Positions 7,644-18,828 of a stretch of DNA of 64,000 nucleotides are shown here, piece after piece (the first letter of the stretch is position 1; every line of letters starts with the position of its first letter). This DNA comes from Chloroflexota bacterium (GTDB taxonomy: Bacteria > Chloroflexota > Anaerolineae > Aggregatilineales > Phototrophicaceae), in the NCBI GenBank assembly GCA_026706455.1, contig JAPOYS010000118.1, positions 1,910 to 65,909 on the forward strand, in the 5' to 3' direction. Position numbers and translations under genes: made by a program. The notes beneath the pieces are model-generated. The model had not been told where the DNA came from. It searched no databases and worked only from the letters and a program-made list of their open reading frames with translations.

Positions 7644-8342
7644 TTAATCCTCGGCCTCTGGATTCAGAACATTTCCTTGAACCAAGCCCGCGATAATGCC
7701 GCCTCCAAAGATGCCGATTAGGTACGGGATCAAGTACGATGCATCGCCGGCGATAAGCGCGGGACCCAGCGTACGTGACGGATTCAGCGAGGCGCCCGTC
7801 GCCGGACCGCCGGCGAATATACTGGCTGCCAAGGTAAAGCCAATGGCGACTCCCGCCAGCTTGCCCGCGCGTCCATAGGCTGCCGCTTGAATCACGGCGC
7901 TGACCAGGAAGAAGGTCAGGATGGCTTCGTAGATCGCGGCTGTCCAAACGGATTCTTGCGTCAGGAAGCCGGTCGTCTGGCCGAAGTTGTAGGCGTTCTC
8001 GCCCAGAAAAGCGGCCACGCCGGCGTTGTCCTGCGGAAAGACCACCACCAAGACGGCAGCCGCGATGATGCCGCCGATGAATTGGGCGACGATGTAATAG
8101 GCGGATTTTGTCCAGTCTTGCTGACCGCTGACGGACAAACCCAGCGTAACGGCCGGGTTGACCTGCGCGCCGGAAATATGGCCGTAGGTGTAAATCAGGG
8201 CGCAAAGGATCAAGCCGTGGGCGAGCGCCGGCACGACGACGCCAAATACGGGCGCAACCAGAACCGCGGCCGATCCAACAAACACCAAAACAAATGTGCC
8301 GATTAACTCGGCTAACAATTCTCGTCTAAGACCGTCATCCAT
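7644..8342 (-). CDS. MIP/aquaporin family channel
   Basis: MDDGLRRELLAELIGTFVLVFVGSAAV; first NPA in SGAQVNPAVTLG, second box is NPS (GASLNPSRTLGPAL). Confidence 0.9.
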   Translation of the reverse strand: MDDGLRRELLAELIGTFVLVFVGSAAVLVAPVFGVVVPALAHGLILCALIYTYGHISGAQVNPAVTLGLSVSGQQDWTKSAYYIVAQFIGGIIAAAVLVVVFPQDNAGVAAFLGENAYNFGQTTGFLTQESVWTAAIYEAILTFFLVSAVIQAAAYGRAGKLAGVAIGFTLAASIFAGGPATGASLNPSRTLGPALIAGDASYLIPYLIGIFGGGIIAGLVQGNVLNPEAED

Positions 8343-8621
8343 AATATTTCTCCTTACTCTCACCGCGTGCGAAGAGGCGGAACAGCGATCTGACAACACC
8401 ATTATAAACAATCGGCAGGTTATTGCGCGGACGACAATGGCATGGAATGTGGACTGTCTATTGTTGAGGATATAAGCTGCCTGCGATCTTGTCAAAAATC
8501 TCTGCGCCTTCTGTGTTCTCCCTATTTTGGAGCTTTGTAGGGGCGAACCTTGGCTCGCCCGTCTCATTCGACGCAGAGACATATCCAAAAAAATAGACAC
8601 TACCAAATTATTGCGACCGAT

Positions 8622-8650
8622 TTGACAGCGGCGGGTGTATTTGGTATAAA
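8622..8650 (+). promoter_or_regulatory. strong sigma70-type promoter
   Basis: TTGACA (8622-8627), exactly 17 bp, TATAAA (8645-8650). Confidence 0.75.
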
Positions 8651-8656
8651 CGGCGG

Positions 8657-8868
8657 CGCCTGCTGTATACGTGATAGAACTATATGTGCCGAGCCAACAT
8701 TCTCCATAGGGGAGTCTATCTTTGTTAGCCAATGTAATAGGCTCGAGCCAAAACAGCGGTTAGCAAGCGATTCCCGACCTGTAATTTCGCAGGTTCGAGA
8801 CACTATGGCTACACGGTACAGTGGGTTCGTTCTGATAGGCAGCGCGCGCTTGATGCGCTGCCTTTTGT
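8657..8868 (+). ncRNA. candidate structured small RNA, class unknown (6S-like layout possible)
   Basis: Starts just after the promoter; 8659-8673 pairs with 8812-8825 (14 bp, one bulge); internal helices 8690-8695/8740-8745, 8697-8700/8732-8735, 8702-8705/8711-8714 and 8775-8781/8790-8797; ends in a terminator. Confidence 0.6.
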
Positions 8869-8869
8869 T
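8838..8869 (+). terminator. rho-independent terminator
   Basis: GGCAGCGC / GCGCTGCC 8-bp stem followed by TTTTGTT. Confidence 0.8.
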
Positions 8870-8872
8870 CCG

Positions 8873-10168
8873 CTAGCGGGCGTAGTCATCCCCAAAGGTC
8901 TGCGAGAGCAAGACCGGCAGCCGTTCAACGCGCGGCACCAGCACCTGCTGCTGCTCTTCCGTTACGTATTCTTCCAGGTAGTTGAAGTCCATCACGCGCA
9001 TCGTGATGTTGTCGAAGTCGATCTCGCGCAAGAGCAAAGCCAATTGAATAATCTGCTCAAGGTCGAGACTGGTTTGAACATGCGCCTCCAGGTTGGCTAG
9101 CAATGCCGGCACTTGCGCTACCAGCCTGATGAAGTCTAGGCTGAGGACGCGCTCGCGGATCGCATAAAGGACCATCTGCTGCCGTTCGGCCCGCCGCACA
9201 TCGTTGTTTCCGTGGCGCGTACGCGCGAAGCGCAGCGTGTCGCCCCCGTCCAGCAGGTGCGTGCCCGCCGGCAGATAAAAGGGATCGTAACCATAATTCA
9301 TATCCGGAAACCGTTCATCGTTGATGTCGTAGTCGATGCTTATTCTAATGCCTCCGAGATGATCGACAAAATCGATAAGCGCTTGGAAATCCACCAAGAC
9401 GTAATTGTGAACGCGCATGCCCAGATTCCAGCTTACCGCCTGCTGAAGCAATCGCGGACCATAGCCGGGGGCGCGGCTTTCGCCAATGAAATACGCGCGG
9501 TTAATGCGGTCGTGCGCTTCCTGTTCCGGAATGCGCACCCACAAATCACGCGGAATACTGAGGACGCCAATGCTGCTCGAAAGCGGGTCGATGCTGACGA
9601 GCATCAAGCTGTCAGTGCGGACCGGTTCACCCGTTTGATCGGGGCGGCGATCGAGCCCGCCGACGATGACGGAATAACGCGATTGTCCATCCCAGGGCGC
9701 CATTTCAATCAGGCGGCCGTCATCCAGCTGCAGAACATCGACGCCAACGCGGCGGCCATCGGCGATGTACTCGTTGCGCGCGTTCACCGGCGTCGGCAAG
9801 ACCGGCGTCAAGTCCGCGGTTGGAATAACTTCCTGAACTGCGTGAGGCAGGCGAATCAGCACGATCATCGCCAGAACGAGGAAAGCAAAGACAGAAATGA
9901 TGCCGCCTGCTAAGATGACCCAAGCCCAATCATTGCGCCGGCGCCGTTGCGGCGCTTGCAGTTGGCGAACGCGGGCGCCCGTCAGCGGTCGACTTGGTGG
10001 CGGTCCCGGCGCTAATCGCGGGTCCCGCGTAAATTTGGCGGTGCTGTAAATTGGCGCGGCATGTCCGGCTTTCGGCGGCGGCGGGACGAGCGAGCCAGCA
10101 TCGTTTGCGGCGTCGACTCGTCGCCGGTTCGTAGCGACTTGTTGGTTCTGGTCGATCCGGTGAGCCAT
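8873..10168 (-). CDS. LytR-CpsA-Psr (LCP) family protein
   Basis: N-terminal TM segment, then RTDSLMLVSIDPLSSSIGVLSIPRDLWVRIP, INRAYFIG, FARTRHGNNDVRRAERQQ. Confidence 0.9.
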   Translation of the reverse strand: MAHRIDQNQQVATNRRRVDAANDAGSLVPPPPKAGHAAPIYSTAKFTRDPRLAPGPPPSRPLTGARVRQLQAPQRRRRNDWAWVILAGGIISVFAFLVLAMIVLIRLPHAVQEVIPTADLTPVLPTPVNARNEYIADGRRVGVDVLQLDDGRLIEMAPWDGQSRYSVIVGGLDRRPDQTGEPVRTDSLMLVSIDPLSSSIGVLSIPRDLWVRIPEQEAHDRINRAYFIGESRAPGYGPRLLQQAVSWNLGMRVHNYVLVDFQALIDFVDHLGGIRISIDYDINDERFPDMNYGYDPFYLPAGTHLLDGGDTLRFARTRHGNNDVRRAERQQMVLYAIRERVLSLDFIRLVAQVPALLANLEAHVQTSLDLEQIIQLALLLREIDFDNITMRVMDFNYLEEYVTEEQQQVLVPRVERLPVLLSQTFGDDYAR

Positions 10169-16272: not shown

Positions 16273-16429
16273 GTGGCCTCTGTGTTCAGAAAGCAGTCCA
16301 ATGATTGCGGACAGAAATGTTCTCCGCGACGCGACCTCCACCGATCGAGAATGGCGCTTGACATCCGCGATAAGCTGCGCTAGCATCTGCTCAACTGAAT
16401 ATCACTAAAGACTGAGAACCAGAGTAGTA

Positions 16430-16675
16430 CGCGTCAGCCTGCCGTTCAGAGACTCGCTAGCCGCTGTGAATGCGAGACGCGCGGAGACGCCGAATGGGCT
16501 GGGGAGTCGCGCAGGTGAAAGGGAGACCGACTAGCTTGCGCCGGAGAGCGCACCGTTAGCAGCGCGGGATATCGACTACGAGTCTGTATCCACAAAGCGA
16601 CCTGCAGACGCAGGTAATCAAGGTGGCACCGCGGGAACCCATCTCGTCCTTGAATGGATGATTCGGGTTCTTTTG
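16430..16675 (+). promoter_or_regulatory. T-box leader upstream of trpE
   Basis: AAGGTGGCACCGCGGGAACC...CTCGTCCTTG T-box/antiterminator signature at 16619-16652; possible TGG specifier at 16495-16497. Confidence 0.85.
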
Positions 16676-16688: not shown

Positions 16689-18215
16689 TTGATGCTCAAT
16701 ACGAGACTAAGCGAGCGCAGCGATATCAGACCCTCGCGGCAGGAGTTGTTCCGCCATTTCCGGCAGGGTGATCACGTGCCGGTCTATCGCACACTGCTGG
16801 CCGACCTGGAAACGCCGGTATCGGTCTATATGAAGCTGAAAGAAGCGGGCAAGCCGGCCTTTTTGCTGGAGAGCGTCGAGGGCGGCGAGCAGGTGGGACG
16901 TTATTCCTTCATCGGCGTGAACCCCAAAGGCGTGCTCAGCGTCAAGGACAATATCGTCACCTTCGAGCGCAACGGGGCGACGACCAAGTTCGCCATTCCG
17001 GAGGGGCAGGATCCGCTGCACGTCATCAAACGTCACTTCCAAACCGTGAATCCAGTCGCCTTGGAGGGGCTGCCTCGTCTGGTCGGGGGAGCGGTTGGCT
17101 TCATGTCCTACGATATCGTGCGCTACTTTGAGGATTTGCCAGCGACGGCGAGCGATGATTTGGGTGCGCCGACGGTGGCCTTCATGCTGCCGGATACGCT
17201 GGTGATCTTTGATCACGCCATGCACCAGTTGATTGTGCTGGCGAACGCGCACAATACGGGAAACGACCCCGACGCGGCTTACGAGCGGGCTGTCGCCAGC
17301 ATTGACGCGATCACCGCAGCCTTGTCCGCGCCACTGGTTCACCAAGCCTATGATCAGCCAGCCAATGGCGAGCGCGTCGACCCGAAGGCGAATGTTGAAC
17401 AGCACGTGTATGAGGACCGCGTGCGCGTCGCGAAAGATTACATTCGTGATGGCGATGCCTTTCAGATTGTGCTGGCGCAGCGCTTTAGCCGTCAGACCGA
17501 AGCCAGCCCGCTGGAGATTTATCGCGCGTTGCGGGCGACCAACCCGTCGCCTTATATGTTCTTGTTGGATTTCAGCCATGACCTGACACTGGTGGGCGCG
17601 TCGCCGGAGATGCTCGTCCGGCTGGAAGACGGCATCGCCTACAACCGCCCGCTGGCTGGCACGCGCCGGCGTGGCAAGAGTGAGACGGAAGACCTGGCGC
17701 TGGAAGAAGAACTGATGAACGATCCCAAAGAGCGCGCCGAGCACGTGATGCTGGTCGACCTGGGTCGCAACGACTTGGGGCGCGTCTGCGATTATGGAAC
17801 GGTCAAAGTTACCAGGATGATGTATGTCGAACGCTATTCACACGTCATGCATATCACGAGCCAAGTGGAGGGCTTGCTGCGCAAAGGCATGGACGCCTTT
17901 GATTTAGTGCGCGCCACCTTCCCGGCTGGTACGCTCAGCGGCGCGCCGAAGGTGCGGGCGATGGAGATCATCGAAGAGCTGGAGCAAACGCGCCGCGGCC
18001 CCTACGGCGGGGCGGTCGGTTATTTCAGCTTTGACGGCTCGATGGATATGTGCATCACCATTCGCACGCTGCTGATGCAGAACGGTACGCTCAGCGTGCA
18101 AGCCGGCGGCGGCATCGTCGCCGACAGCGACCCAACTGAAGAATATTACGAGACGATCAACAAAGCCGCGGCTGTCTTCGAGGCGGTCAAATTTGCCGAA
18201 AAGGGCTTGATGTGA
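16689..18215 (+). CDS. trpE: anthranilate synthase component I
   Basis: [49 protein letters not shown]. Confidence 0.96.
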
Positions 18216-18240
18216 GCGCCGCCCAATGGGAAGGACGATC

Positions 18241-18828
18241 ATGATTCTGGTAATCGACAATTACGACAGCTTTACTTACAACATCGTGCAGGAGCTGGGC
18301 GAATTGGGCGCCGACCTGACCGTCTATCGCAACGACAAGATCAGCGTTGAGGAGATTCGCGCGCTGGCGCCGGAGCGCATCGTGATTTCACCGGGTCCCG
18401 GCTTCCCCAAGGACGCCGGCGTATCGCTTGAGCTCATCCGCGAGCTTGGCGCCGAGATTCCGCTCCTGGGCGTCTGCCTGGGTCATCAAGCGATTGGCGA
18501 GGCTTACGGCGGCTTGGTCGTCCACGCGCCCGAACTGATGCACGGCAAGACGAGCATGATCTATCACGAGGGCGACGCCATACTGGGCGGCATTCCCAAT
18601 CCATTCGAAGCGACGCGCTATCACAGCCTGATCGTTGACGAAGCGAGCTTGCCCGATTGCCTCACGGTCACGGCGCGGGCGGCCGGCGGCGAAATCATGG
18701 GCTTGCGCCACAAAGAGCATCCGGTCATCGGTCTGCAGTTTCACCCCGAGAGCATCCTGACTCGCTGCGGCTTGCAGATCCTGGGCAATTTTCTCACATA
18801 CGAAATCTGTGTAGGGGCGACTCTGTGA
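18241..18828 (+). CDS. trpG: anthranilate synthase component II (glutamine amidotransferase)
   Basis: [51 protein letters not shown]. Stop codon lies in a palindromic repeat. Confidence 0.95.

Follow-up and report, generated by a model that had tools for sequence, protein, structure and literature searches.

A 6S RNA gene between aquaporin and LCP-family genes in an uncultured Chloroflexota bacterium

The locus and its neighbours

The 64,000-nucleotide stretch of DNA analyzed here (the window) is from an uncultured Chloroflexota bacterium and carries a 6S RNA gene flanked by genes for an aquaporin and a cell-wall (LCP) protein. RNAs of this type are widespread among bacteria, where they bind RNA polymerase and hold it in check. 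The features of the locus are collected in Table 1. The closest aquaporins found among named MAGs are from Anaerolineae/Chloroflexota, and in 25 of 34 named MAG loci the 6S sequence lies upstream of the aquaporin gene on the opposite strand, two of these 25 being partial matches of approximately 60 nt. The remaining nine loci show no 6S sequence beside the aquaporin gene; several of them are truncated by a contig end or come from distant relatives.

Table 1. Coordinates of predicted features at the 6S RNA locus (window positions)
Feature	Position	Strand	Basis or remark
Aquaporin (MIP) gene	7647-8342	minus	
Sigma-70-type promoter of the 6S gene, TTGACA-N17-TATAAA	8622-8650	plus	Exact sequence match
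6S RNA (ssrS) body	8654-8831	plus	Full-length RF00013 match, Rfam
Closing stem, 5′ strand	8658-8672	plus	Pairs with 8813-8826; Rfam model, covariation, minimum-energy fold
Helix P2, 5′ strand, predicted pRNA template	8685-8695	plus	Both-side pair changes
Central bubble, 5′ side	8696-8709	plus	Holds C8698, predicted pRNA start template, placed by analogy with B. subtilis 6S-1
Apical (internal) stem-loop	8710-8775	plus	Both-side changes in 16 of 24 pairs
Central bubble, 3′ side	8777-8794	plus	Has hairpin ACCTG...CAGGT, overlapping the P2 3′ strand; sequence
Closing stem, 3′ strand	8813-8826	plus	Pairs with 8658-8672; Rfam model, covariation, minimum-energy fold
Intrinsic terminator hairpin	8837-8863	plus	Terminator scan; 10 pairs, 7 G-C; then TTTGTT
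LCP-family gene (LytR_cpsA_psr)	end near 8873	minus	

Elsewhere in the window, a T-box leader (RF00230) is found at 16405-16654 of the plus strand with 102.8 bits against a cut-off of 93. It is just upstream of plus-strand open reading frames that read like a tryptophan operon. Named from their translations, these appear to be an anthranilate synthase-like frame (16689-18215) and a glutamine amidotransferase (18226-18828), followed by trpD- and trpC-like frames.

Family assignment

The RF00013 model matches the plus strand over its positions 1-187 with a score of 60.5 bits, compared with a gathering cut-off of 46.4 (E-value = 1.7e-9). A permissive scan of positions 8400-9000 shows no second Rfam family at E ≤ 1, tmRNA, SRP RNA and Chloroflexi-1 included, and no tmRNA or tRNA is found in the window. 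An RF00013 search of the whole genome gives one 6S copy; Bacillus subtilis, in contrast, has two. The feature is almost certainly a single-copy 6S RNA gene (ssrS) of an Anaerolineae bacterium. The preliminary description had recognized a stand-alone gene for a structured RNA with a likeness to 6S RNA, had left its class open and had named an Rfam search as a check; the full-length match above cut-off settles the class.

As in other members of the 6S/SsrS family (RF00013), there is a closing stem, a central bubble, an apical stem, a promoter and terminator belonging to the RNA itself, and a single gene copy. The sequence differs from the family in being too diverged for recognition by eye and in the weakness of several upper pairs of its apical stem. 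Another type of 6S-like polymerase-binding RNA may be considered, e.g. Ms1, a structural relative of 6S RNA (PMC9130861) whose binding partner is the core enzyme free of the primary sigma factor. This reading is very improbable given the full-length RF00013 match well over the cut-off, the lack of any other Rfam family at E ≤ 1, and a predicted pRNA template at the bubble edge that is conserved and 6S-like.

Promoter, terminator and transcription unit

The promoter consists of TTGACA at 8622-8627, a 17-nt spacer and TATAAA at 8645-8650. No other TTGACA-N16..18-TATAAW site occurs in the window when both strands are scanned. The promoter scanner skipped this site because it demands T as the last -10 position. 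In all 18 genus loci examined, TTGACA or TTTACA is found at 17-nt spacing from a TATAAA-like -10 sequence, 2-3 nt before the matched 6S start. The promoter pointed out in the preliminary description is both exact in the sequence and constant in position. A promoter with at least 10 of 12 matches is present in 48% of 60 loci as against 0.7% of random stretches. Judged from the promoter spacing, the transcript probably starts at approximately 8656-8658.

The GC-rich terminator hairpin with a T-rich tail, also described earlier, was found by the terminator scan. In genus relatives the letters of its stem vary but the pairing is retained. The genus-conserved promoter and the terminator together define, computationally, a stand-alone transcription unit of approximately 180-200 nt. 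With expression taken from what holds for the family, the 6S gene would be transcribed rightwards from the sigma-70-type promoter and end at this terminator.

From its intergenic position, the RNA could also be taken for a riboswitch or long 5′ leader, or for a structured 3′ UTR belonging to one of the adjoining genes. However, both neighbouring genes are on the minus strand, the RNA has its own conserved promoter, and the terminator follows it directly with no plus-strand gene close downstream. The probability of a leader or UTR is negligible, and a riboswitch or leader is rejected on gene orientation.

Secondary structure

For 8653-8869, the predicted fold surpasses each of 200 shuffles in stability (z = −4.5). 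When the transcript is trimmed to 8657-8836, the minimum-energy fold is the 6S rod, in which the closing stem, P2 and the apical stem are formed and the central bubble stays open. This fold is sensitive to the transcript start, and addition of 8653-8656 breaks the closing stem. A closing stem had been proposed near 8659-8673 and 8812-8825; it is real and covaries, with the slightly shifted boundaries given in Table 1. In P2, both the family model and the minimum-energy prediction for the trimmed transcript pair CGAGCC (8690-8695) with GGTTCG (8792-8797). The nested apical stem spans 8710 to 8775, and several Rfam pairs of its upper part are unpaired in the window sequence.

A nested hairpin proposed earlier at 8690-8745 has the complementary letters on which it was based (CGAGCC, 8690-8695, and GGCTCG, 8740-8745) but is not a kept structure. 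This local hairpin is rejected, as 8690-8695 covaries instead with 8792-8797. The 3′-side hairpin placed at 8775-8797 in the same description is present in the form ACCTG...CAGGT, and its core letters, CCTG and CAGGT, are invariant across 43 aligned relatives. In the 6S RNAs of both Escherichia coli and B. subtilis, the 3′ side of the bubble has been described as bearing hairpins (PMC8876501), and the window RNA resembles B. subtilis 6S-1 RNA and E. coli 6S RNA in this respect.

Covariation

Forty-three Anaerolineae 6S sequences were aligned with MAFFT without use of structure, and the Rfam structure was projected from the window sequence. The Rfam structure is paired in 85.2% of cells over the 43 sequences, as against 36-43% when the partner is slid by 1-3 columns. 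Changes on both sides of a pair are found in 28 of 48 pairs and total 193 cells. None of 500 shuffles reaches the observed value on any of five measures; the shuffle comparison is inflated by the relatedness of the sequences, which is preserved in the slid control. RNAalifold alone recovers largely the same helices. Covariation therefore backs the rod of closing stem, central bubble and apical stem that marks membership in the 6S family. A covariation check had been named in the preliminary description, and its outcome is that the relatives are conserved and show compensatory changes.

The same relatives bear on a possible small protein gene, e.g. the 108 aa open reading frame with a TTG start at 8550-8876, whose frame is open in the window genome. 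The start of this frame lies before the promoter and the frame crosses the terminator, while the relatives have 1-nt gaps inside the RNA and their changes track base pairing. A protein gene here is extremely improbable, and the frame is rejected as incidental in that it spans both promoter and terminator and is met by 1-nt gaps in relatives.

Distribution among relatives

A search of near relatives shows 6S RNA above cut-off in 37 of 41 genomes; within the genus the count is 23 of 25, the window genome included. In the four genomes that gave no 6S match, a search at the DNA level was also negative. Two of the four (G004 and G007) are genus genomes, and the adjoining aquaporin gene is likewise absent from both assemblies; therefore the absence of 6S RNA in these two is likely to represent a missing piece of the assembly. 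In a sample of the phylum, 6S RNA was found in 55 of 301 genomes under stricter search filters, a count that is no proof of absence elsewhere because the stricter filters lose weak matches. Little on 6S RNA in Chloroflexi was found in the literature searched.

One genome of the same class (G128) shows two 6S matches, C4:337188-337363 and C5:648395-648571, with 51.8 and 33.5 bits, one of them below cut-off. The second match is possibly a second 6S paralogue.

Predicted pRNA and mode of action

6S RNA mimics an open promoter, and short pRNAs that polymerase templates on it release the 6S RNA (PMC12005410). By homology, the 6S RNA of the window would also mimic an open promoter. It would bind the housekeeping sigma-RNA polymerase holoenzyme as growth slows, and polymerase would then copy the bubble edge into a short pRNA, predicted as 5′-GUUGGCUCGGCACA, with release of the 6S RNA; these steps are drawn from the family.

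The pRNA of B. subtilis 6S-1 is 5′-GUUCGGUCAAAACUA (PMC12005410) and starts at C40 (PMC8876501). By its position relative to C40 (PMC8876501), C8698 is the predicted template for the pRNA start in the window RNA. The bubble-edge motif GAGCCAAC gives a predicted pRNA of 5′-GUUGGCUCGGCACAUA in the window; for most of the other Chloroflexota examined the prediction is GUUGGCUCAAAAC. Most relatives share the predicted pRNA start GUUGGCUC, which is followed by AAAAC outside the genus and by GGCAC within it (window 8684-8698, plus strand; loci L001-L060). The predicted start-template motif is thus conserved and consistent with B. subtilis 6S-1. As in 6S-1, the predicted pRNA begins with G, and related Chloroflexota have GUUGGCUCAAAAC where B. 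subtilis has GUUCGGUCAAAACU (PMC12005410). The window genus departs from 6S-1 in that GGCAC replaces the AAAAC stretch of the pRNA. It is conceivable, if rather unlikely, that four consecutive U residues (A4 in the pRNA), common to Chloroflexota relatives and B. subtilis 6S-1, have been lost from the genus template, so that pRNA lengths and 6S release may differ from those of relatives.

Escherichia coli 6S RNA carries a GAGCC motif at the P2/bubble edge and its pRNA starts with A. The window RNA has the same GAGCC motif at this edge, but its predicted pRNA would begin with G, not A.

The wider biology of 6S RNA is already established. The gene reported here is ordinary and well conserved; the individual member is new and its kind already known. 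With the class of the RNA settled, well-aligned 6S sequences are added from an uncultured Anaerolineae genus. The one mildly useful point is a predicted pRNA that is conserved across Chloroflexota with a genus-specific change, and which would be testable in vitro.
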